Part shown: positions 12,440 through 27,170 of the stretch, one piece after another | Layout of the letters: each line of letters begins with the position of its first letter | Numbering within the stretch: position 1 is the first letter of the stretch | Assembly (NCBI GenBank): GCA_024276955.1 | Contig: JAJRWE010000184.1 | Coordinates: 1-36,297 of the forward strand | Length of the DNA stretch: 36,297 nt | Direction: 5' to 3' | Source: Gammaproteobacteria bacterium | GTDB taxonomy: Bacteria > Pseudomonadota > Gammaproteobacteria > SZUA-152 | Program-made: the position numbers and the translations under genes | Notes under the pieces: generated by a model | Databases searched by the model: none | What the model saw: only the letters and a program-made list of their open reading frames with translations | What the model was told of the DNA's origin: nothing

Positions 12440-13669
12440 TTAACTCCAGCCTTGCAGGCAATACGGGTTGAGTAGGGCGCGCTGCCATAACTGCTTACGT
12501 TCTACGGCCGTCATTCCTGCCTCATCACAGACCACAAGCCAGTTGTCTTCAACAACAGCCCGCAACGTATTAATCATCGCCCGGGAACGCTCTGTATCGA
12601 GCTGAAATGATGTGCAAATGGATAGCACATTGCTCAGTGTGGCATGATTCCCTTCATCTCCCACCAGTTGCATCGCCTGCGTGGCCTCCAGCCCTGTGCG
12701 CACCTGGGGGCAAAGATCATAGGCAGGCGTCAGCCTCAGCATTTTTCCATCCCAGAGTGCGGCGTGGTTGCGGGCGTGGTCATCGGTATTGCCGATCAAT
12801 ACATTGAAAATCAGTCTGCGATAGAGTTCGTGTAGTGTTTTTTGGGGGGTAGCAAAATAGCGACGAATCAAATCTGCTAAATCCCGATAACGGGCATAAC
12901 GTGCTTCCATCTCGTTCAGGCCTAACAGACTCAGAGCACTGAGCATGGCATGTCGGCACATGCCTTTTTTAGTGGGAGAACGATCAAAGCGTTCAACCAG
13001 TAATACATCCTTGCCCAGGATGCTTTGCAGCGAAACGCTGGCCACATCAATACCCGCCAGGCTGGCCAGGCGCATGGCAACAAATTCACCTTTAACGACA
13101 TTGTATGTATCGGATGTCGAACTGAACTTGGCGATGTACTGCTCATCATTTACATTGATGAGCGCTTTGGGGCGGGCACCGCCTACACTTGTTCCATGCA
13201 GTAATGCATAGTCGAGTTCGGGCGGTAGGGGTAGCTGGCGTTCTATGAGGGAGGCCGCCTCCAGCAGTTCATCCAGACTGGGATGATCTAACCCCCTGGA
13301 TCGGTACTCGGTGCTACTCGCCTGAAAATCGAGTGCCCCAATGCGGTCACTTCCCGAGAGTAGTAGATAATCCAGCTCATCAGCGGCCAGGGCAGGGTAT
13401 TTATAGCTCACGACCCGTCGCCCCCAGGCATCCGGTGCCGCATCGCGTAAACAGGGATGGATGGTATTCATGCCCAGGGGCTCGAAGGTGCCTTCCTGTA
13501 AGGGCAATTCTACGGGCGATAACGGTATGGCATTGTCACGCTCACGGTAAGAGCGGCCATAGGTAAAGAGAAGGTGATTTCCCTGTTTTTGCAGGCGTCC
13601 AGCAACGACCGGTTCGACCGCACCCGGTAGCCATATCCACACAAAACCGGCTTCTACATTAGAAATCAT
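12440..13669 (-). CDS. hipA: HipA-family serine/threonine kinase toxin (type II TA)
   Basis: 409 aa with [13 protein letters not shown] and catalytic [19 protein letters not shown]...LTPAYDLCP; preceded by a HipB-like gene. Confidence 0.93.
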
Positions 13670-13991
13670 CGTTGAGCTGTGTTTTGCGCTTGCTGCGTGC
13701 CGGTAGCAGTGTGGTGAGACTGGCCACAGTATTTACGAGCTTATTGAGTCCGGCGGTATCTTCTGCTAAAAGCGGTACCCCCAGCACTGCGGCCGTTTCC
13801 AGCACTGCCCCGATAGCCACTCTGGGATCGGCCTTTTCGATGGCTATAATGGTATGCCGACTGACACCGACACGTTCAGCGAGCTCAACCTGGCTCAGTC
13901 TGCGCTCAAGTCGTGCGACTTTGATTAACTGGCCGAGAACGCCCAGGGCTGTTTGGGAGATGACAGATAGGGAAAGCGTATTCTTTTTCAT
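13659..13991 (-). CDS. hipB: HipB-like HTH antitoxin
   Basis: HTH_3 region LIKVARLERRLSQVELAERVGVSRHTIIAIEKADPRVAIGAVLETAAVLGVPLL; overlaps the hipA start by about 11 nt. Confidence 0.85.
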   Translation of the reverse strand: MKKNTLSLSVISQTALGVLGQLIKVARLERRLSQVELAERVGVSRHTIIAIEKADPRVAIGAVLETAAVLGVPLLAEDTAGLNKLVNTVASLTTLLPARSKRKTQLNDDF

Positions 13992-15043: not shown

Positions 15044-15589
15044 TCAGGTCCTGGTGGGCTTTTTCTGCAGTTTACGCTGCAATGTGCGGCGATGCATGCC
15101 GAGGGCGCGCGCGGCGGCGGAGATGTTGCCGTGGTTCTCCATCAGTACCTTCTGCAGATGCTCCCATTCCAGACGTTTGACCGACAGGGGGTTCTCCGCC
15201 ACGGGCACGGCGGGATCGCCGGCATGGCGTTCCAGGGCATGGATGATTTCATCGGCGCTGGCGGGTTTAGTGAGGTAGTGGGTGGCGCCGAGCTTGATGG
15301 CCTCCACGGCGGTGGCGATGCTGGCGTAGCCGGTGAGCATGACCATGCGCAGGTCGGTGTTCATGGCCTTGAGCCCCTTCACCAGTTCCAGCCCGGACTC
15401 GTGGCCGATGCGCAGGTCGATGATGGCGTATTCCGGGTTGTGGTCGCCAGCCAGTTCCAGCCCCCCAGCCAGATCGGTGGCGGTATAGACCTCGAAATCA
15501 CGCTTCTCCAGCGCCCGGCTGAGCACGCGGCAGAAGGTAGGGTCGTCGTCCACCAGCAGGAGTGTCGGTTTATCGTGGGTACTGCTCAT
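15044..15589 (-). CDS. regA: RegA/PrrA/ActR/RoxR-type response regulator
   Basis: REC domain (LLLVDDDPTFCRVLSRALEKR) plus Fis-type HTH (HGNISAAARALGMHRRTLQRKLQKKP); overlaps the cognate kinase gene. Confidence 0.92.
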   Translation of the reverse strand: MSSTHDKPTLLLVDDDPTFCRVLSRALEKRDFEVYTATDLAGGLELAGDHNPEYAIIDLRIGHESGLELVKGLKAMNTDLRMVMLTGYASIATAVEAIKLGATHYLTKPASADEIIHALERHAGDPAVPVAENPLSVKRLEWEHLQKVLMENHGNISAAARALGMHRRTLQRKLQKKPTRT

Positions 15590-16881
15590 GGGCGGATTCC
15601 GATCAGGGGCAGGTTGATACAGGTGCAGGTGCCGCCGCTCTCGCGGCGGCGATGGCTGACGTGGCCGCTGAGGCGCTCGATGACGGCGTGGGCGAGGAAC
15701 AGGCCGACGCCCAGGCCCTGTTCCTTGCTGCTGAACTGGGTCTTGCCGGCGGCCGAGACGGCGGCCTCGCTGAGGCCGGGGCCGCGGTCGAGGATATGGA
15801 TGTCCAGGGTCTGTGCATTCCAGCTGGCTTGCAGTTCAACGCTGTTGGGAGAGGCGTCGGCGGCATTGTTGAGAATGTTGGTCAGTGCCTGATTGAGGGC
15901 GCGGTCGGCCAGCATGGCGGGGGCGGGCTGTGGCCCCTTCAGTTGCTGACTGAAGGTGATGCCGGGCCGTTCCACCTGCCACTGTTTGGTGAGCTGGCGC
16001 AGATAGCGGTCCACCGGCAGCGACTGCCCCTCGTCGGCACGCTGCTTGCCGGCGGAGGCAGAGATCACCGAGAGTGCGTCCTTGCAGCGGTCGATCTGCT
16101 CACGAACCAACTGTAGCTGCTCACCCAGTCCAGCGTCCCTTTCTGTCGGCTTTTTATGGGCAAGATCCAGTAGCAGGTCATCGACCACCAGGGCAATGGT
16201 GCCCAGCGGTGTACCCAGTTCGTGCGCGGCGCCGGCGGCGAGGGTGCCGAGGGCCACCAGACGCTCGTCGCGCAGGGCCTGTTCGCGGGCCTCTGCCAAC
16301 ACACGGTCGCGTTCGCGCAGGCTGCGGGCCATGTTGGTGACGAAATAGGATACCAGCACGGCGCTGAGTACGAAACCGAACCACATGCCGAAGACGTGCT
16401 GGGAAAAGCCGTCGTCGGGCTGCATGTGCGACATGGCATCAGCTGGCTGCAGGGGAAGGTAAAAAAACATCAGTAGTGAATAACAGGCCACGGTCAGTCC
16501 CGCCATGGCCCAGACATGAGCGGTTGGCAGTACGGTGGCGGCAATCATCAGTGGTAGCAGATAGAACCAGGCAAAGGGATTGGTGGCGCCGCCAGTACAG
16601 TAGAGAAGGGCGCTGAAGGCGAGGGCGTCGGTGACTAATTGGAAGAAAAATTCGCCATCGGACACCGGCTGCGGCTGGCGTGCGCGCCACCAGGTGAACA
16701 GGTTCCAGGCGCTGTGAGCGAGCAGGATGAGGGCCAGCGGCAGTATCGGCAGGGGCAGGTCGAGCCATAGCAGGCCGATGCCGATGAGCAATATCTGCAT
16801 GCTGATACTGATCGTGCGCAGCCCGGCGATACGGCGCAGGTTGTGTTGCGTGGAGGCGTAGCGGTTATTGGCGGTCAGCAT
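15586..16881 (-). CDS. regB: RegB/PrrB/RoxS-type redox sensor histidine kinase
   Basis: Six-TM N-terminus starting NLRRIAGLRTISI; H-box LAAGAAHELGTPLGTIALVVDDL; G-box GLGVGLFLAHAVIERLSG. Likely start 16881; the ORF track extends to 16989. Confidence 0.9.
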   Translation of the reverse strand: MLTANNRYASTQHNLRRIAGLRTISISMQILLIGIGLLWLDLPLPILPLALILLAHSAWNLFTWWRARQPQPVSDGEFFFQLVTDALAFSALLYCTGGATNPFAWFYLLPLMIAATVLPTAHVWAMAGLTVACYSLLMFFYLPLQPADAMSHMQPDDGFSQHVFGMWFGFVLSAVLVSYFVTNMARSLRERDRVLAEAREQALRDERLVALGTLAAGAAHELGTPLGTIALVVDDLLLDLAHKKPTERDAGLGEQLQLVREQIDRCKDALSVISASAGKQRADEGQSLPVDRYLRQLTKQWQVERPGITFSQQLKGPQPAPAMLADRALNQALTNILNNAADASPNSVELQASWNAQTLDIHILDRGPGLSEAAVSAAGKTQFSSKEQGLGVGLFLAHAVIERLSGHVSHRRRESGGTCTCINLPLIGIRP

Positions 16882-16982
16882 GGTATGGGCGGGTATCGGT
16901 TGCAGTCGGTACCCCTGACGTTTCCAGCCAGTCAGAGGTTTCCGAACATTATCCGGTAATGCCTGGCCACTGTCAGCGGCCT

Positions 16983-16997
16983 GCGACACTTTGTCAC
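16983..16997. promoter_or_regulatory. Candidate RegA-type binding site
   Basis: GTGACAAAGTGTCGC on the minus strand resembles the published GNGRC-N5-GNCGC-type RegA/RegR pattern; lies between divergent regB and the Met-rich operon. Confidence 0.35.
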
Positions 16998-17078
16998 ATT
17001 CTCAGTGCAGAAGGTGCGGATTACGATGGGGGGCATCGGAGGGGTGTTGCCCCGTGACCCGCATGTAAGGAGTCGAGA

Positions 17079-18743
17079 ATGAAACGTGTATCCACTCTGT
17101 CGACCTGGCTGAAACTGGCCGTCATCCCACTGGCAGGACTTTTGACAGCCTGCGGCAGCTCTTCCAATGACGAGGGTACGGATACCACGGCCGTGACGGG
17201 CTCGGTGACAGCGGCGCCAGTGGATGGCGCCAGCGTGATGGCCCGGGACACGGCTGGAAATGCCCTGGCGGGCCCGGTCAGCACGGCGGCCGATGGGACT
17301 TATACGCTGCACATCGCCAATGCATTACTGGCCTCGGATCTGCTGTTGGAATCTTCGGGCGGTACCTACATCGATGAGGCTACGGGGCTGAGCGCCACCG
17401 CGGGCACCCTTGCCGCCCACATCGCGGGCGGCAGCCTGTCGGCCGCTGCGCAAGTGCATATGACACCGGCAACGACCATTGTTCGTGATCTGGTGCAGAC
17501 CCATGGCATGAGCCTGAGCGCCGCGCAATCGGCCTTTGAAACGGCCTTCGGTTTTGGCGCGGAGACCTCGGTGGCGCCGGTCGATGCCACCGATCCAACG
17601 GCGGGGGCGAGTGATGCCCCATTGCTGGCTGGCCTGCACGCCGCGGCCTTCAGTCAGCTGACCATGGATCTGGGACTGGCTACCGGCGAGCAATTCAACC
17701 TACTGACGGCACTGGCCGAGGACCTGGCCGACGGCAGTCTCGACGGTGTCGGTACCCATGGTGCGGTGACCGTGGTTGGTTCGACACTGCTGCCGGCCGA
17801 TATCCAGAACCGCTTTGGCCAGGCAATGTTGGGTTTTCATGCGGGTGCCCACAACAATACCGGCCTGTCCAATGACAAGATCGGCGCTGTGCCCTTCGCC
17901 AAGCTGGCGTTGAGCAATAGCTACAAGGTGGAATACCTGCCTGGCATGATGGAGGCGATGGCCGGTAAAACTGCCTTTAAACTGCGTGTATCGAATCTCA
18001 CCGATGATACGGCGGCAGCAGGCCTGAGTATTTCACTGATGCCGATGATGTACATGGCCTCGGGCATGATGCACAGCTCACCCATTGGTGGGTGCAGCGA
18101 GAGCACAACGGCGGGTGAATATGACTGCACCGTCTATTATCTGATGGCCTCTGCCATGAGCAACGGCATGTCCATGGGTTACTGGCAGCTGAAGGTGATG
18201 ATCGGCGGCATGATGGGTGAGTCCGTCACCTTTTCGCCGGCAGTAATGATGGCCATGGGCGATACCGCCAAGGTGACCCTGAGAGGCCATACGACGGGCA
18301 GCGACATGATTGCCGGCATGGCGATGGATGGTGGCATGGCCATGCCGGAGAACCGTAGCTATTACCTGTTCAAGGACGGCCTGAGCGGCATGACCGGCAA
18401 CCATACGCTCACGCTGTTTGTCGCCGCCAAGGAAAGCATGATGAGCTATAAGGCGGTCTCTGTCGGCACGGTGCTGAGCAGTGGCGATGCCTCGTATGAA
18501 CTGACGGTGGCTTCGATGGCTGTTGAGATATCCACCGATGGCTCGACCTGGATCGACGCCAGCAATAGTGGCACTGGCCTCTGGACGGTCGCCGGCATCA
18601 CGGGGTTGACGGATGGCAGCGCCGGTAACGTCTATGTTCGCCTAACCGTCAATGGTGAGCAGAAGACCACTAATGGTGCGATTCCCGCCGGCGATGGCAG
18701 CAATGATTACGGTACTTTTATACTGACCCCGAGCGGGATGTAA
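17079..18743 (+). CDS. Methionine-rich secreted lipoprotein with CarboxypepD_reg-like N-terminal domain
   Basis: Lipobox LAGLLTACGSSSN; strongly Met-rich block (MMEAM, MPMMYMASGMM, GMSM, GGMM, VMMAM, GMAMDGGMAM, SMM) in residues ~290-455. Confidence 0.8.
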   Translation: MKRVSTLSTWLKLAVIPLAGLLTACGSSSNDEGTDTTAVTGSVTAAPVDGASVMARDTAGNALAGPVSTAADGTYTLHIANALLASDLLLESSGGTYIDEATGLSATAGTLAAHIAGGSLSAAAQVHMTPATTIVRDLVQTHGMSLSAAQSAFETAFGFGAETSVAPVDATDPTAGASDAPLLAGLHAAAFSQLTMDLGLATGEQFNLLTALAEDLADGSLDGVGTHGAVTVVGSTLLPADIQNRFGQAMLGFHAGAHNNTGLSNDKIGAVPFAKLALSNSYKVEYLPGMMEAMAGKTAFKLRVSNLTDDTAAAGLSISLMPMMYMASGMMHSSPIGGCSESTTAGEYDCTVYYLMASAMSNGMSMGYWQLKVMIGGMMGESVTFSPAVMMAMGDTAKVTLRGHTTGSDMIAGMAMDGGMAMPENRSYYLFKDGLSGMTGNHTLTLFVAAKESMMSYKAVSVGTVLSSGDASYELTVASMAVEISTDGSTWIDASNSGTGLWTVAGITGLTDGSAGNVYVRLTVNGEQKTTNGAIPAGDGSNDYGTFILTPSGM

Positions 18744-18750
18744 GCACGTC

Positions 18751-19731
18751 ATGGCATCTAATGCTATAAAGGCGATCCTGCTGGCTGGGATCGCCTGTGG
18801 TTTCTCATTCACGTCCCCGGCGACCTGGGCCGCCTCCTGTTGTGGCGGCGGCTCGTCTTCATCACTGATCATGCCCAAGTTTTCGCGCGCCATGGTGAAT
18901 CTGTCCGTGGATATGGAAAACTACAACGGTTTCTGGGATTCGCAGGGTGACTACCGCCCGGATCCCCAGGACTCGGATCTCAACCAGTACCGTATCAATC
19001 TGGGCTATGCCCACCGCTTTGCTTCACGTTGGCAGGGCAGCGTGATCCTGCCTTATGTGTGGAACAATAATGACTACACCGGCCTGACATCGAACACCCA
19101 GGGCCTGGGGGATACCACCCTCAATCTCTGGTACGAAAGCTTCGACAAAATCACCTGTGTGTGGAAGGTTCGCAAGTGGGCCGACCTGAAACCAGCGGTC
19201 TATCTGGGCGGCTCGCTCACCGTGCCTACCGGCGTCTCCCGGTTCGACAGCGTGGCCAACAGCTTTGATATCACCGGCCGGGGTTTCTATCGCCTGGACG
19301 CCAACCTGCTGGTGGAAAAGACCATCTACCCGTGGAATGCCTTGTTGTTGTTGTCCTACGGAAAATACCTCGAACGCAATGTCAATCGCGACTACGGCAA
19401 CTACGTCGAGCCGACCCGCCGCAAGCTGGGCGACCGCAAGCTGGCCACCCTCTCGGGCGGCTATACCTATTTCCTCGAATCCATGGATACGCTGACCTTT
19501 ACCCTGGCCTATTCGCATTTGCAGGAAGACGATGGCCGCATTGATGGCCGCCCCGATCCCAGTACCCGCATGGAAAAGAATTCCCTCGCCGGCACCGTCG
19601 CCTGGTCCACCATGGACCGTGACTGGATCTTCAAGGGCACCCTCAGCCACGCCGTGCCCAGAAATGACTGGGGCGAGAACTTCCCCGTCACCAACACCCT
19701 GAGTTTCGAGGTGAGCCATGTCCTTCGCTAG
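18751..19731 (+). CDS. Outer-membrane beta-barrel-like protein with N-terminal CCGGGSSSS motif
   Basis: Signal peptide ending WAASCCGGGSSSS; alternating aromatic/polar strands ending in ...SFEVSHVLR. Confidence 0.75.
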   Translation: MASNAIKAILLAGIACGFSFTSPATWAASCCGGGSSSSLIMPKFSRAMVNLSVDMENYNGFWDSQGDYRPDPQDSDLNQYRINLGYAHRFASRWQGSVILPYVWNNNDYTGLTSNTQGLGDTTLNLWYESFDKITCVWKVRKWADLKPAVYLGGSLTVPTGVSRFDSVANSFDITGRGFYRLDANLLVEKTIYPWNALLLLSYGKYLERNVNRDYGNYVEPTRRKLGDRKLATLSGGYTYFLESMDTLTFTLAYSHLQEDDGRIDGRPDPSTRMEKNSLAGTVAWSTMDRDWIFKGTLSHAVPRNDWGENFPVTNTLSFEVSHVLR

Positions 19732-20266
19732 ACGGCTATTGATGATGCTTGTGCTGATGCTGTTGGCCGGCTGTGACAATATGCGGGATGACCTTATTCC
19801 CTCCGGCAAGGACAAACGCCCCGACATAGTGCTCGGCAGCGTTGGCCCGCAGGTGGGCCAGATCGCCCCTGACTTCACCCTCGATGACACCTTGTATACG
19901 CCGCACACTCTGTCCACCGAACTGGGCAGCGTTCGCGCTGTGGTGTTGTACTTCAACATGTGGTGCCCCATCTGCGACACCCACGCCAACCACATGCGCC
20001 AACACATCGTACCGGACTTCCCCGATGTGCGTTTCTTCCTCATCGACTACGTCAGTGGCTCGGTGCCCCTCAGCCGCAGCAACCAGATCGCCAGTGGTTA
20101 CAGTGATTTCACCGTGCTGGTACCCACCATCGACGGCTTCATCAAGCGCTATCAGGCCACCATGGGCACCACCGTGGTGATCGATGCCAGTGGACAGGTC
20201 GTGCGCATGAACGAAGACTATCTCGACGGCAATAAGCTGCGTGCTACCCTGGACGCTCTGCCATGA
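19718..20266 (+). CDS. Thioredoxin-fold (TlpA/redoxin-like) lipoprotein
   Basis: Lipobox LMLLAGCDN; redoxin start GQIAPDFTLDD; CxxC as MWCPICDTH; overlaps the preceding ORF by 14 nt. Confidence 0.85.
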   Translation: MSFARRLLMMLVLMLLAGCDNMRDDLIPSGKDKRPDIVLGSVGPQVGQIAPDFTLDDTLYTPHTLSTELGSVRAVVLYFNMWCPICDTHANHMRQHIVPDFPDVRFFLIDYVSGSVPLSRSNQIASGYSDFTVLVPTIDGFIKRYQATMGTTVVIDASGQVVRMNEDYLDGNKLRATLDALP

Positions 20267-20544
20267 GGCGCGTGTTGCTGGGGATTTTGTGGATGGCGGG
20301 AGCTGCCGGTACACTACTGGCGGCCGACGGCGAACTCAGTGAACAGCAGGCGCAGGGCAAGGCGCTGTTTGAGGTACGTTGTGTAGCCTGTCACCAGTTG
20401 CCCGAGTCCGACATGCTGACAGAAAATCAATGGAAGCGCCTGCTGCAGCTGATGCAGAAACGCATGCAACAGGCCGATATGCCACCGCTGGACGAGGAAG
20501 AGTTTGCACAGGTGCATGCCTATCTTGCTTCGCAGTCGAAGTAG
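20263..20544 (+). CDS. Small periplasmic monohaem cytochrome c
   Basis: 93 aa with signal peptide, CVACH haem motif and downstream Met ligand candidates (ADMPPLDEEEF); ATGA overlap with upstream gene. Confidence 0.85.
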   Translation: MRRVLLGILWMAGAAGTLLAADGELSEQQAQGKALFEVRCVACHQLPESDMLTENQWKRLLQLMQKRMQQADMPPLDEEEFAQVHAYLASQSK

Positions 20545-20582
20545 GGCAGGGAGAGTGAAACGAAGAATAGAAGGTACACAAA

Positions 20583-21086
20583 GTGAGATGCTTTTTGTTA
20601 TATCTGCTGCTGGTTCTGGTGGCGGTATTGCCGGTTCAGGCCGATAGCCTGGATCCTGCCGAAAAGCCGTCCGCGCCCGGGTTCACCCTGAAAAATCTGC
20701 GGGGTGAAAACGCCAGTCTGTCCGACTACCATGGCAAGGTTGTGCTACTCAATTTTTGGGCCACCTGGTGCGCACCCTGCCGAAAGGAGATGCCGAGCAT
20801 GGAAAAACTCTGGCAGACCTACCGCGAGCAGGGGCTGGTGATCCTCGCCGTATCCACCGACAACGGTGGCGAGTCGCGCATCAAAAGCTTCGCACGCCGT
20901 CTCAAACTGACCTTCCCCATCCTGCTCGATCCAGACAGCCAGGCCAGCGATCTATATCAGGTCTCCGGCATCCCCGTGAGTTTTCTCATCGACCGCCAGG
21001 GGCGTATTGTCGCTCATGTGCTGGGCAGCAAAGACTGGGCCAGTGAGTCGGCCTTCCAGCAGGTGGAAAATTTGCTTCTGCAGTGA
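20583..21086 (+). CDS. TlpA-family thiol:disulfide oxidoreductase
   Basis: LNFWATWCAPCRKEMPSMEKLW active site; signal peptide. Confidence 0.93.
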   Translation: MRCFLLYLLLVLVAVLPVQADSLDPAEKPSAPGFTLKNLRGENASLSDYHGKVVLLNFWATWCAPCRKEMPSMEKLWQTYREQGLVILAVSTDNGGESRIKSFARRLKLTFPILLDPDSQASDLYQVSGIPVSFLIDRQGRIVAHVLGSKDWASESAFQQVENLLLQ

Positions 21087-21697: not shown

Positions 21698-22192
21698 ATG
21701 TCTACATCAACGGTGATGACGCGCCGACATTTTATGAGTATGGGTAAGCTGGAGCCTTATGCTCCAATCCGCCCACCTTGGTCTTTTTCTGAAGATCAGT
21801 TCATGATGCACTGTACACAGTGTGGTGATTGTATTTCTGCATGTCCCGAAAATATTCTTTTACGTGGCAATCTGGTTCGATATCCAAGAGTCGATTTTTC
21901 ACTGGGAGAGTGCACGTTTTGTCATGCCTGTGTTGATGCTTGCCCAACACAGGCTCTGGATAAGCGCCTCGCTCAGCCATGGCAGATGATGGTCGCTGTA
22001 GGTGAGACATGCCTGGCTAGAAAGCAGGTTGTTTGTGTCATCTGTAGTGAACAGTGTGAAGCACAGGCCATTCGTTTTATTGCTATTGCTGGTCGCGTTT
22101 CTTTGCCCGAAATTAATAGGGATTCTTGTACAGGATGTGGGGCCTGTGTTGCGCCTTGCCCGACACAGGCCCTTGAGGTGATGTATGAATAA
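21698..22192 (+). CDS. napF: Ferredoxin-type protein NapF
   Basis: Three 4Fe-4S motifs: CTQCGDCISACPENIL, CTFCHACVDACPTQAL, CTGCGACVAPCPTQAL; first gene of nap cluster. Confidence 0.93.
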   Translation: MSTSTVMTRRHFMSMGKLEPYAPIRPPWSFSEDQFMMHCTQCGDCISACPENILLRGNLVRYPRVDFSLGECTFCHACVDACPTQALDKRLAQPWQMMVAVGETCLARKQVVCVICSEQCEAQAIRFIAIAGRVSLPEINRDSCTGCGACVAPCPTQALEVMYE

Positions 22193-22472
22193 TGAACAGG
22201 AACCTGTTGGTTGCATTGTTGGCGCAGTCATTCAACTCAGGCCGAATTGTACCAAAAAACAGTATGAGAGATTGGTTCGAAAGAAGGGGCTTGAAATCCA
22301 CGCGCGGGATGATCAACAGCGTTTGGTGGTTACTCTGGAGGCCGATACGGACGGAGAAGTGATAGAAATCATAGAAAAAATTCAGAACATGAACAGTGTT
22401 TTGAATATATATACGGTGTATCACCACTTGGATGAGTTCCAAAATGAAACGGAGGGATGGACATGGCGGTAA
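22185..22472 (+). CDS. napD: NapA signal-peptide-binding chaperone NapD
   Basis: 95 aa located between napF and nap[12 protein letters not shown]...[18 protein letters not shown] resembles NapD. Confidence 0.9.
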
Positions 22473-24973
22473 CACGTAGAACATTCATTAAGACAACTGC
22501 GGCGGCAGCGGCAGCGGCAACAGTCAATATGAGCCTGCCAGGATCAGTCAATGCGACCCTTAATGCGGAAGATAATCGTATTCGTTGGGATAAGGCCGCA
22601 TGTCGATTCTGTGGGACAGGCTGCGGTGTGCTCATTGGCACACAAAAGGGACGTATTGTAGCCACTCAGGCAGATCCTGATAATGAGGTCAACAGAGGAA
22701 CTAACTGCATCAAGGGCTATTTTCTATCCAAGATCATGAGTGGGAAAGATCGCCTGACCACGCCATTGCTGCGTAAGAAAAATGGAAAATTTGATAAAAA
22801 TGGTGAGTTTACGCCGGTATCGTGGGATGAAGCCTTCGATATCATGGCCGACAAGTGGAAACAGACACTGAAGAAAAAAGGCCCGGAATCTATTGGCATG
22901 TTTGGCTCTGGTCAATGGACCATTATGGAAGGTTATACGGCTGTCAAGTTGATGAAGGCAGGTTTCCGCTCCAATAACATCGACCCCAATGCACGTCATT
23001 GTATGGCATCCGCGGTGGGTGCATTCATGCGTGGTTTTGGTTCCGACGAGCCAATGGGCTGCTACGATGACCTTGAACATGCGGATGCATTTGTACTGTG
23101 GGGTTCGAATATGGCGGAGATGCATCCGGTTTTGTGGATGCGTATCACGGATACACGTTTAAGCAAGCCGGACTCTGAAGTACATGTGTTGTCCACCTAT
23201 GAGCATCGCTGTTTTGATCTGGCTGATAACGGTATGGTGTTCACACCGCAGACGGATATGGTTATTCTGAATTATATTGCCAACTACATCATCACTAATA
23301 AGGCTTACGATAAGGGCTTTGTCGATAAACATGTTAATTTCAAAATAACACCGACGGACATTGGTTACGGGCTTCGTCCTGAGCATCCACTACAGAAGAA
23401 GGCGAAGAACCCCAATAAAGGTAAGCTGTCAGTTATCGACATCGATGAATATGCCCGCCTGGTGAAGCCTTACACACTGGAGTATGCCGCCAAACACAGT
23501 GGTGTGCCCAAGGAGAAGTTGCTGCGATTGGCGAAGCTGTATGCCGATCCTAACAAAAAAGTGACTTCGTTATGGACCATGGGCTTCAACCAACATACCC
23601 GTGGGGTTTGGACCAATGGACTGATGTATAACGTCCACCTGCTGATGGGTAAGATATCCAAGCCTGGCGATAGCCCCTTTTCGCTGACCGGGCAACCATC
23701 TGCCTGTGGTACGGCGCGTGAGGTGGGTACATTCTCCCATCGGCTACCTGCTGATCTTGTGGTGAAGAAAAAAGAGCACCGGGACTTTTCTGAAAAAGTT
23801 TGGAAATTACCGGAAGGAACAATTCCGCCCAAACCAGGATTTCACGCCGTACTGCAAAACCGTAAGTTGAAAGATGGTGTGCTCAATGCCTATTGGGTAA
23901 TGTGTAATAATAATGTTCAGGCAGCGGCTAATATGAATGAAGAGACGCTGCCGGGTTATCGCAATCCGGATAATTTCATCGTTGTTTCCGACCCCTATCC
24001 AACCGTATCCGCCATGGCCGCTGACCTGGTGTTGCCTACGGCGATGTGGGTGGAAAAAGAGGGCGCCTATGGCAATGCCGAACGCCGTACCCAGGTATGG
24101 CGTCAGCAAGTGAGCGCACCCGGAGACGCCAAGTCTGATATGTGGCAGTTGATGGAGGTTTCCAAGCGTTTCAAGACTGAAGAGGTGTGGCCTGAGGAGT
24201 TGCTGGCCAAGCGTCCTGAGTATCGGGGTAAAACATTGTATGAAGTGCTTTACCGCAACGGCAGTGTCGATAAATACCCAGCACAGAAGGTGACGGATGA
24301 TGCAGGTAATGTCTATGCCAATGATGAAATGGATCATTTTGGCTTCTACGTCCATAAAGGCCTGTTTGAAGAGTACCGCACGTTTGGTACACAAGGGCCA
24401 AAAATAGGGCATAACCTGGCGGCATATGATCAACTGCATCGTGAGCGGGGAATGCGGTGGCCTGTAGTCAACGGCAAAGAGACAAAATGGCGCTATCGCG
24501 AAGGTTCAGATCCATTTGTTCCGGCGGGTAAAGAATTTTATTTCTACGGCAATAAAGATGGCCGGGCAAATATTATTTTTGCGCCGTACGAGCCACCGGC
24601 AGAAAGTCCGGATGCAGAATATACGATGTGGCTCTGTACGGGCCGCGTATTGGAGCATTGGCATTCAGGCACCATGACGCAGCGGGTGCCGGAGCTGTAC
24701 AGGGCGGTACCCGATGCGCAGGTATTTATACATCCTGATGATGCAAAGAAACTTGGTCTTAAACGGGGTGATCTGGCGGAGATTGAGAGTCGGCGTGGCG
24801 AGATTGTCGCGCTTGTCGAAACCCGGGGGCGGAACAGACCACCCGTAGGTCTGGTCTTTGTGCCATGGTTCGATGCACGCCGCCTGATCAATAAGGTCAC
24901 CTTGGATGCAACCGATCCGCTTTCAAAGCAGACGGATTATAAAAAATGTGCCGTTAATGTAAGAAAAGCATAG
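22463..24973 (+). CDS. napA: Periplasmic nitrate reductase catalytic subunit NapA
   Basis: Tat signal [16 protein letters not shown]; 4Fe-4S motif [41 protein letters not shown]; NapA-type MPT-binding sequence. Confidence 0.97.
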
Positions 24974-24985
24974 GAGGCGTATGTC

Positions 24986-25396
24986 ATGAGAAAAATATTG
25001 ATAGTAGTGTTAATGCTGATCGCTACTTCTGTCGCATGGGCAGCTTCTGATGCTGTGTTTTCGCTTCGCGGTGATTCACCATTGAATGCGGGTTCCGTCG
25101 GTGTTATGGATAAAAAATGGCGCGATGGTGAAGGCACCGTGGTGCGCAGTTATCCACAACAGCCACCACTGATACCACATACCATTGTGGATTATACGAT
25201 CACCAAGGGTAACAATGATTGTCTGATGTGCCATGACTGGAAGTCTGAATTGCCGGGAGCGACCAAGATTGGTGTCTCGCATTTTGTGAACAGAGATGGT
25301 CAGGCTTTATCCAGTATTTCTCCACGTCGTTATTTCTGTACCCAGTGCCATGTGCCCCAAAGAGATGTAAATCCGTTGGTATCGAATGTTAATTGA
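24986..25396 (+). CDS. napB: Periplasmic nitrate reductase dihaem cytochrome subunit NapB
   Basis: PPLIPHTIVDYTI...CLMCH...PRRYFCTQCHVPQRDVNPLVSN. Confidence 0.96.
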   Translation: MRKILIVVLMLIATSVAWAASDAVFSLRGDSPLNAGSVGVMDKKWRDGEGTVVRSYPQQPPLIPHTIVDYTITKGNNDCLMCHDWKSELPGATKIGVSHFVNRDGQALSSISPRRYFCTQCHVPQRDVNPLVSNVN

Positions 25397-25460
25397 TCCA
25401 GTTGTTTTGGCTGGATAAATATATTCATTGATAAAATACTTGTTGTTAGCCGGTCCAATT

Positions 25461-25487
25461 CCCCCTCTCTTCTAAAAGGAGAGGGGG
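25461..25487 (+). other. Hairpin in the napB-napG gap
   Basis: CCCCCTCTC-TTCTAAAAG-GAGAGGGGG, no T-run. Confidence 0.6.
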
Positions 25488-25559
25488 TATCATGATGCTT
25501 TCTGCAAAGACCACAGTGAAGAATCCCTGAACGTGATGTGTGTCAGGCTGTGAGCGCCC

Positions 25560-26321
25560 ATGGCAATCAATAAAAGTATAACCCGCCGTAACTTCCTCTC
25601 CAATGTGCTTGGGTCGGCGTGTGGGGCGGCGCTGTTAGGGGCGGGCTTAAGCGTTTATTCCCGGCAGACGGCTTCGATGCCTGCCTTGAAGATTCGTCCA
25701 CCCGGTGCCTTGGATGAAGAGGCATTTTTGGGGGCGTGTGTGCGTTGTGGTCAATGTGTGCGTGATTGTCCCTATGACATCCTTCATCTTGCCGGCCTGG
25801 GTGAGCCTGTGCCTTTAGGGAGTCCTTACTTTGTTGCCCGAGAACAGCCTTGCAGGATGTGTGTGGATATTCCTTGTGTGAAGGCGTGCCCGACAGGGGC
25901 TCTTGATCACAGCTTGGAGAATATCGATGATGCCCGCATGGGATTGGCCGTGGTAGTGGATGAGGAGAATTGCCTGGCATGTCGTGGTATGCGCTGTGAG
26001 GTTTGTTTTTATATTTGTCCACTTCTTGGCGAGGCCATCACGATAGATCTTTTGCCCAAGACAGGTTCAGGCAAGCTTCCACGGTTTATACCCGTGGTGC
26101 ATTCTGATACTTGTACGGGTTGCGGAATGTGTGAGGGGGCATGCGTGTTGCAAAAGTCGGCGATTAAGGTTTTTCCGAGATATTTGGCGCTTGGTCAGGA
26201 GGCTGAGAAATATCGGTATGATGATAAAGGTGAGAAGGTGATGGATGAAGGAGAGGCGGATGATACGCCATTTTCATCCAATCCTTTAGAGACGATTAAT
26301 CGTGGTCGAGGGAGTTTGTAA
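25560..26321 (+). CDS. napG: Quinol dehydrogenase Fe-S subunit NapG
   Basis: Tat motif TRRNFLSNVLG; multiple 4Fe-4S motifs (CVRCGQCVRDCPYDIL, CRMCVDIPCVKACPTGAL, CTGCGMCEGACV). Confidence 0.95.
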   Translation: MAINKSITRRNFLSNVLGSACGAALLGAGLSVYSRQTASMPALKIRPPGALDEEAFLGACVRCGQCVRDCPYDILHLAGLGEPVPLGSPYFVAREQPCRMCVDIPCVKACPTGALDHSLENIDDARMGLAVVVDEENCLACRGMRCEVCFYICPLLGEAITIDLLPKTGSGKLPRFIPVVHSDTCTGCGMCEGACVLQKSAIKVFPRYLALGQEAEKYRYDDKGEKVMDEGEADDTPFSSNPLETINRGRGSL

Positions 26322-27170
26322 GTGGCTAGGCGGAGGGATATTGGCGCAGCGGCCGTGCAAAGCAAGGGCTGGTATAAAAGTCACCAGTGGTTGTTGTTGC
26401 GCCGTCTGTGCCAGTTGAGCATTCTGAGCCTATTTTTGTTAGGCCCGATTGCCGGAATTTGGTTGATTAAGGGAAATCTTGCATCGAGTATGATTTTAGG
26501 TACGGTGCCGTTAAGTGATCCTTATTTGCTGTTGCAAGTATTTCTTACAGGTCATATCCCTGAGGTGACAGGCTTGTTGGGCGCCGCTATTGTGTTGGTA
26601 TTTTATCTATTGGTCAGTGGGCGTGTTTATTGTTCATGGGTTTGTCCCGTCAATGTTGTGACCGATACCGCCAGTTGGCTGCAGCATCGGTTGGGCATTA
26701 AGGCACGTACACATTATTCACGACAAACGCGTTATTGGTTGTTGGGGATGACATTGATTTTGGCGTTTGCGACCGGCTCTTTGGTGTGGGAACTCGTGAA
26801 CCCTGTTTCCATTGTTTTTCGAGGCCTGGTGTTTGGTTTGGGTTTAGGCTGGGGGGTGATTGTTGCCCTGTTTTTATTTGATCTGTTGGTGAGTCACCGG
26901 GGTTGGTGTGGACACCTGTGTCCGGTCGGGGCTTTTTATGGGTTGATTGGCCGGGTGAGTTTGTTGCGCGTGGTTGCGGCGAAGCGTGAGCAATGTAATG
27001 ATTGTATGGATTGTTTTGATGTTTGCCCGGAGCCGCAAGTCATTCGGCCTGCGCGTAAAGGGGCAAGAGGGCAACGGAGTCCGGTGATTAAAAATGCTAT
27101 GTGTACAAATTGTGGGCGTTGTATTGATGTCTGTTCAAAAGATGTCTTTCGCTTTGGATTACGAAAATGA
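26322..27170 (+). CDS. napH: Quinol dehydrogenase membrane subunit NapH
   Basis: TM segments; CSWVCPVNVVTD and CGHLCPVGAFY motifs; C-terminal CNDCMDCFDVCPEPQV and CTNCGRCIDVC clusters. GTG start. Confidence 0.95.
   Translation: MARRRDIGAAAVQSKGWYKSHQWLLLRRLCQLSILSLFLLGPIAGIWLIKGNLASSMILGTVPLSDPYLLLQVFLTGHIPEVTGLLGAAIVLVFYLLVSGRVYCSWVCPVNVVTDTASWLQHRLGIKARTHYSRQTRYWLLGMTLILAFATGSLVWELVNPVSIVFRGLVFGLGLGWGVIVALFLFDLLVSHRGWCGHLCPVGAFYGLIGRVSLLRVVAAKREQCNDCMDCFDVCPEPQVIRPARKGARGQRSPVIKNAMCTNCGRCIDVCSKDVFRFGLRK

Follow-up and report, generated by a model that had tools for sequence, protein, structure and literature searches.

Copper has been listed as crossing the outer membrane through porins, through TonB receptors such as OprC/NosA, which acquire it via Cys, Met and His residues, and by methanobactin uptake (PMC7558416). 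In Helicobacter pylori, the Met-rich exported protein CrdA binds copper and is needed to hold free copper under the toxic level (PMC9182242). Channels of the COG4313 family, in which an N-terminal segment occludes the lumen, are described as importing hydrophobic molecules (PMC4493636), while the periplasmic copper chaperone SenC, which is similar to thiol-disulfide oxidoreductases, is encoded by a gene that is always cotranscribed with group 1 regBA (PMC9147068). Here we describe a locus that invites comparison with all of these systems. It lies on a 36,297-nucleotide stretch of DNA of a gammaproteobacterium (positions 1 to 36,297 of contig JAJRWE010000184.1, assembly GCA_024276955.1; the whole stretch is hereafter the window) and encodes a Met-rich lipoprotein, an outer-membrane barrel with an SCCGGG motif, and a redoxin lipoprotein with a CPIC motif. 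In our reading, to which we give a probability of roughly 0.55, the trio is a module under RegBA control that handles Cu(I) at the outer membrane and most likely serves copper acquisition and delivery to envelope cuproproteins. Copper passage across the outer membrane is poorly known. A module that combines a channel with a Met protein of the Cu(I) type and a modified thioredoxin would offer a further candidate route, would connect copper handling with RegBA, a global redox regulator, and would provide testable roles for three families of proteins so far annotated as 'hypothetical'.

A preliminary description of this DNA had proposed a five-gene periplasmic redox/metal operon composed of the trio followed by genes for a cytochrome c and a TlpA-like protein. 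All five same-strand open reading frames (ORFs) are present with their two overlaps, 14 nt between the barrel and redoxin genes and 4 nt between the redoxin and cytochrome c genes, as are the lipobox, SCCGGG, WCPIC, CVACH and WCAPC motifs. That the genes are genuine is clear from homologues in dozens of genomes, in the same order and with intact frames. We compared 47 loci, the window included, that were selected by presence of the barrel. The relatives were found by a contig scan and whole-genome profile searches, most are metagenome-assembled genomes, and the loci are phylogenetically clustered so that counts do not represent independent events. The redoxin lipoprotein is present in 46 of the 47 loci and the Met-rich lipoprotein in 44, with the missing members falling, as far as visible, at contig ends. 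Wherever the contig allows, the order Met lipoprotein, barrel, redoxin on one strand is constant in gammaproteobacteria, in a second class of their phylum as well as in Nitrospirae, and the redoxin start codon lies inside the end of the barrel gene with an overlap of exactly the same length in nearly all loci (Table 1). The cytochrome c gene occurs in only 19/47 loci and the TlpA-like gene in 24/47, and both were rejected as core parts. The conserved unit is thus the Met-rich lipoprotein, the SCCGGG barrel and the CPIC redoxin, with cytochrome c and TlpA as accessories. Co-occurrence across genomes therefore holds for the first three genes of the proposed operon and fails for the last two as obligate members, and a thiol-redox relay with cytochrome c and TlpA at its core is unsupported.

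Profile searches of a sample of 369 gammaproteobacterial genomes gave strong barrel matches in 14. The redoxin profile matches exactly the same 14 genomes, and the Met-domain profile matches these plus one more (G227), where the Met lipoprotein lacks its trio partners; this solitary protein (L161, 7231-9054) is 607 aa long and stands without barrel or redoxin. Barrel relatives are found in 12 of the 24 genomes of the window's own order, in two families of the second class (coded f207 and f204) and in 7 of 296 genomes of Nitrospirae, the phylum of L014. None was found on plasmids.

The trio is an unnamed module. Pfam and NCBIfam scans of the window proteins gave no significant family for the 554-aa lipoprotein or the 326-aa barrel. 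Among the five gene products, family names were assigned only to the cytochrome and the redoxin-type proteins. A literature search returned no description of the module, and the text query SCCGGG returned unrelated papers only. This bears out the earlier remark that the genes fit no named pathway.

Copper-protein neighbours and the three conserved proteins

The strongest single argument for copper comes from the gene neighbourhood, because Csp1 and NosL genes are few per genome. Specifically, the gene that immediately follows the trio in L107, L111, L113, L114 and L115 (family f207) shares its strand and encodes a Tat-type-exported Csp1 copper storage protein (best PDB matches 8r4l and 5fjd, E about 1e-18; 3e-18 for 5FJD), and a NosL above the Pfam cut-off is encoded in this same position in L086, L087, L088 and L090 (Nitrospirae). 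Two lineages have thus each recruited a copper-binding family to this position, and the two families are unrelated. Both are absent from the window operon. Also recurring near the trio are small exported Cys/Met/His-rich proteins (c13, c9) and FtrD-like proteins (c4). Two NosL-like genes stand in tandem downstream of the trio in L086 (2765-3673). In addition, a Tat-type-exported C_GCAxxG_C_C-like redox protein is encoded just upstream of the operon in three Nitrospirae loci (L087, 10552-11445; L089, 4951-5940; L090, 10254-11156).

The lipoprotein concentrates its methionines in residues 276-460, where they make up 27 of 185 residues (14.6%); the values are 2.2% for the N-terminal half and 3.1% for the other compared proteins. 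Across an alignment of 44 lipoproteins M324, M326, H332 and M356 are invariant and M360 (35/36), W369 (43/44), M366 (40/44), M391 and M393 (41/44 each) are nearly so, whereas the cysteines of the window Met domain are poorly kept (C339 in 21/43, C350 in 27/44). We take the M-x-M, His and Trp set to recall the Cu(I) site of CusF. A Met2His arrangement is part of that site (PMC9182242). In the structural model (mean pLDDT 80, pTM 0.61), the N-terminal part looks like the Ig repeats of adhesins (6xi3), while the C-terminal part is Met-rich and Ig-like. Foldseek matched this model to apo CrdA of H. pylori (9ll2; probability 1.00, TM 0.62 on target, 19% identity), the sole compact high-probability match listed for the Met-rich part. 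We tentatively place the match on that part because length and sequence pattern fit, the query range being absent from the output. The Pfam family YtkA (PF13115), which presumably is the wider family of CrdA, matches 5 of 37 homologues at E<=1, all under the cut-off (the best with E 7e-4 and 20.6 bits, where 25.9 are needed), in L085 exactly on the Met motif, and the Met domain aligns by hhalign with 20 YtkA domains of the order (probability 76%, E 2e-5), with which it shares a G-x-Y and G-x-W pattern. A relation of the Met-rich domain to CrdA/YtkA is likely, though short of proven. As in CrdAB, a Met-rich exported domain, here predicted to be Ig-like, is encoded beside an outer-membrane component. 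However, here the domain falls under the YtkA cut-off and is embedded in a lipoprotein of 554 aa whose N-part is adhesin-like, CrdA itself lacks His and Cys (PMC9182242), and no counterpart of the resistance-nodulation-division (RND) pump that is CrdA's partner system is seen. The earlier guess of copper binding is independently strengthened by these invariant residues together with the conserved barrel Cys, the CrdA-like fold match and the Csp1 and NosL genes elsewhere; the redoxin, with its invariant Met and lost cis-Pro (below), also favours copper. Some lipoproteins are short (~260-340 aa), with most of the adhesin-like N-part gone (L005, L006, L007, L013, L061, L086, L087, L089 and L090).

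The AlphaFold model of the barrel (pTM 0.73) has 12 long strands and most resembles FapF and the COG4313 channel 4rl8 (TM 0.63/0.75, E 1e-12 for 4rl8). With these 12-stranded channels it shares the fold (TM 0.6-0.78), the length and an N-terminal segment before strand 1, but it differs in its conserved SCCGGG and Cys136, in its operon context and in lacking a match at E<=1 to PF13557 (Phenol_MetA_deg). By analogy with the lumen-occluding segment of COG4313 channels, the CCGGG segment could be located in the lumen or at its periplasmic mouth, and strand counting in the model would put the Cys136 loop on the periplasmic side. A CopB/PcoB identity is unsupported, as the CopB Pfam profile gave no match at E<=1 and the barrel methionines are not conserved. 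The trio barrel is also unlike OprC, which is a TonB-dependent receptor, in that it is small and no TonB gene is seen nearby; the outer-membrane copper acquisition described for OprC/NosA is for the trio a proposed job. The closeness to FapF and 4rl8, and the implication of COG4313 channels in hydrophobic uptake (PMC4493636), would also fit a channel that takes up some hydrophobic compound, or one of sulfur or selenium, with the Met-rich lipoprotein binding this ligand. We consider this improbable, since no catabolic genes recur in the neighbourhoods and the invariant Met/His/Cys set would be hard to account for.

A trans-outer-membrane electron conduit for extracellular electron transfer, built from barrel and cytochromes, is very improbable. 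The window operon does encode a cytochrome c, with conserved M64 and M68, and in L008 (2-5005) and L074-L076 the trio is preceded by genes for multihaem cytochromes and for a protein with NHL repeats and CXXCH. Yet more than half of the trio loci lack an operon cytochrome, the window cytochrome is mono-haem and the barrel has no haem motif. A 12-stranded barrel is, we assume, also narrower than known porin-cytochrome barrels. A porin-cytochrome conduit is also unsupported for the window itself, where the barrel is accompanied by no multihaem cytochrome gene and by one mono-haem gene only.

The redoxin scores above the PF00578 cut-off, has ResA matches in the PDB and carries a CxxC in an AhpC-TSA-like fold. 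C83, P84 and C86 are present in 46/46 sequences and H89 and M149 in 45/46. Alignment with the window TlpA, which unlike the redoxin retains its cis-Pro, shows Gly150 (44/46) in the cis-Pro position directly after Met149. The redoxin thus shares fold and CPxC motif with TlpA/ResA but has Met-Gly instead of cis-Pro in nearly all members, as well as a family-specific DDL-PSG N-terminal stretch. With SenC/Sco chaperones it shares being an envelope thioredoxin-fold protein genetically tied to RegB/RegA (for senC, PMC9147068). It differs from them as a lipoprotein that has an invariant Met and lacks the cis-Pro, and a Sco/SenC identity is unsupported given its CxxC instead of CxxxC and the absence of a match to PF02630 (SCO1-SenC). 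The place of senC next to regBA is taken here by a different thioredoxin-fold lipoprotein.

Two thioredoxin folds in the window operon, and the redox regulator RegBA beside it, would also suit a metal-free thiol/methionine redox defence, with the redoxins acting on oxidised Met or on the thiols of barrel and lipoprotein to reduce them. This too we regard as having little chance of being correct. The lipoprotein invariants are the M-x-M/H/M/W set and not Met generally, its cysteines are not conserved, no methionine sulfoxide reductase gene was recognised nearby, TlpA is missing from half of the loci, and Csp1 and NosL would be left unexplained.

The RegB/RegA pair and the promoter box

Upstream of the operon and divergent from it lie a RegA/RegB pair and a DUF1415 gene. 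The pair had been overlooked in the preliminary description and adjoins the trio in 14/47 loci. NF033792 and NF033791 are the top matches for RegB and RegA, respectively, yet both fall under the equivalog cut-offs. The window RegB has the quinone motif GGATNPF, a Cys in RCKDAL and a Met/His-containing loop (AMSHMQ), and the window RegA has a Fis-type helix-turn-helix (HTH_8). In Rhodobacter capsulatus, RegA binds copper and is dimerised by it via Cys156 (PMC9147068). The Met/His loop of RegB is at best a tentative candidate for sensing copper: it is commoner in RegBs encoded beside the trio, but the RegB of one trio-less genome has it too, and in some trio-adjacent RegBs the loop is without Met. 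RegB homologues in L111 (9506-10894) and L112 (4025-5308) have very Met/His-rich loops between transmembrane helices (e.g. MHMGNMNHAAMNHSTMNTH) and are possible metal sensors.

Position 16983, the start given earlier, is no gene start but the first position of a RegA-type inverted repeat. It is the sole site in the 36-kb window with <=1 mismatch to GCGACA-N3-TGTCGC, a pattern that was first spotted in the window and afterwards tested on the remaining loci. Upstream sequence was sufficient in 38 loci; the box stands <=250 nt before the lipoprotein gene in 23 of these, as against 1% of random 250-nt stretches from the same loci. Overall, 28 sites with <=1 mismatch occur in 622 kb, of which 24 lie before the lipoprotein gene; L007 supplies a 25th such promoter box after correction of an over-long ORF start, and two further sites precede the gene that comes before the trio. 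The box is also found at loci where regBA does not adjoin the trio, and in none of five Nitrospirae loci. It resembles the RegR/RegA consensus GNGRCRTTNNGNCGC, also written GNG(A/G)C(A/G)TTNNGNCGC; the window box is 2 positions off GNGRCRTTNNGNCGC and several other loci are 0 or 1 off. FNR/ANR boxes upstream of the trio were rejected, being present at chance level (1/37 loci). A second RegA-type box precedes the c27 gene in L074 and L076.

Copper supply weighed against detoxification

In the copper-supply reading Cu(I) would be the ligand, the barrel its path and the redoxin a reductant or copper carrier, with uptake rather than export as the direction. RegB would sense the quinone/redox state and RegA would bind the upstream box and set expression, so that the module would act when oxygen or redox state changes. 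Copper would then pass or dock at the predicted 12-stranded COG4313-like barrel, possibly at its Cys site, and be bound as Cu(I) by the CrdA-like lipoprotein, the M-x-M, His, Met and Trp residues serving as its site. The redoxin may keep thiols reduced or exchange Cu(I), a job like that of Sco/SenC/TlpA, and copper would be handed to lineage-specific partners such as Csp1 for storage, NosL or other acceptors. The window cytochrome c and TlpA may be optional suppliers of electrons or reductant.

The weakest step of this interpretation is the preference for supply over detoxification, in which periplasmic Cu(I) would be sequestered and exported as by CrdA/CrdB or PcoB/CopB. Detoxification is unlikely in our judgment, but it does draw on the CrdA-like fold match, on the role of CrdA in keeping copper below toxicity (PMC9182242) and on MacAB/TolC-like genes seen by eye near several Nitrospirae loci. 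We favour supply because the recurring partners, Csp1 and NosL, store or deliver copper, and because control appears linked to redox through the RegA box and not to copper stress. Moreover, CzcA, CopA, CueO and CopC/D were not recognised in the recurring neighbourhoods, and by Pfam the barrel is outside the TolC and CopB families.

Several results weigh against a copper-supply module. The CrdA match ranks only 37th with E 0.023, the window lipoprotein has no PF13115 match and the YtkA cut-off is unmet, and the Met-domain profile found no match among PDB sequences. The N-terminal 39 residues of the barrel are modelled at such low confidence that the Cys site is not placeable, the barrel lining has no conserved Met or His, and the COG4313 channels are described as importers of hydrophobic molecules (PMC4493636). 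By eye, the window RegA has no equivalent of Cys156 of R. capsulatus RegA, and the genes beside the trio showed neither a classical copper pump nor a copper regulator. Finally, NosZ was rejected as customer: of the 24 genomes of the order only 3 have it, and 2 of these also carry the trio. As most carrier genomes of the order lack NosZ, nitrous oxide reductase cannot be the general customer. A more specific form of the copper-supply reading, in which the barrel is a Cu(I) channel of the outer membrane, gated by Cys and independent of TonB, that is served by a dedicated lipoprotein receptor and a copper-carrying redoxin, under RegBA control in uncultured gammaproteobacteria, another proteobacterial class and Nitrospirae, is put forward only tentatively.

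Feature coordinates and flanking genes

Table 1. Features of the trio locus, in window coordinates.
Feature	Position	Strand	Details
Met-rich lipoprotein gene, 554 aa	17079..18743	+	ORF call; lipobox C25 followed by G
Met-rich domain(s), likely CrdA/YtkA-like, residues 276-460	17904..18458	+	44-sequence alignment, Foldseek, hhalign
Outer-membrane barrel gene, 326 aa	18751..19731	+	ORF call; 12 predicted strands; SCCGGG at residues 29-34
Cys30-Cys31 codons	18838..18843	+	Cys pair in 46/46 sequences
Cys136 codon	19156-19158	+	conserved in 42/43
Barrel/redoxin gene overlap, 14 nt	19718..19731	+	same length in 41/45 loci
Redoxin lipoprotein gene, 182 aa	19718..20266	+	thioredoxin fold, WCPIC; Pfam PF00578, E 1e-7
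Cytochrome c gene, 93 aa	20263..20544	+	small, exported, mono-haem, CVACH; Pfam PF00034; accessory
TlpA/ResA-like thiol-disulfide oxidoreductase gene, 167 aa	20583..21086	+	WCAPC, cis-Pro kept; Pfam PF00578, E 5e-32; accessory
RegA/RegR-type box GCGACACTTTGTCAC	16983..16997	+	96 nt before lipoprotein ATG
RegB/PrrB/ActS-type redox sensor kinase	15586..16989	-	NCBIfam NF033792, E 4e-72, 243 of 350 bits needed
RegA/PrrA/ActR-type response regulator	15044..15589	-	NCBIfam NF033791, E 5e-56, 189 of 250 bits needed

Downstream of the operon, positions 21698-27170 hold a periplasmic nitrate reductase cluster encoding a NapF-like protein, NapD, NapA, NapB and two 4Fe-4S proteins consistent with NapG/NapH; no NapC was found among the scanned proteins of this cluster. 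At 12440-13991 there is a gene for a HipA-like kinase (HipA_C, Couple_hipA); an ORF of 110 aa, possibly for the matching antitoxin, lies upstream and overlaps it by 11 nt.

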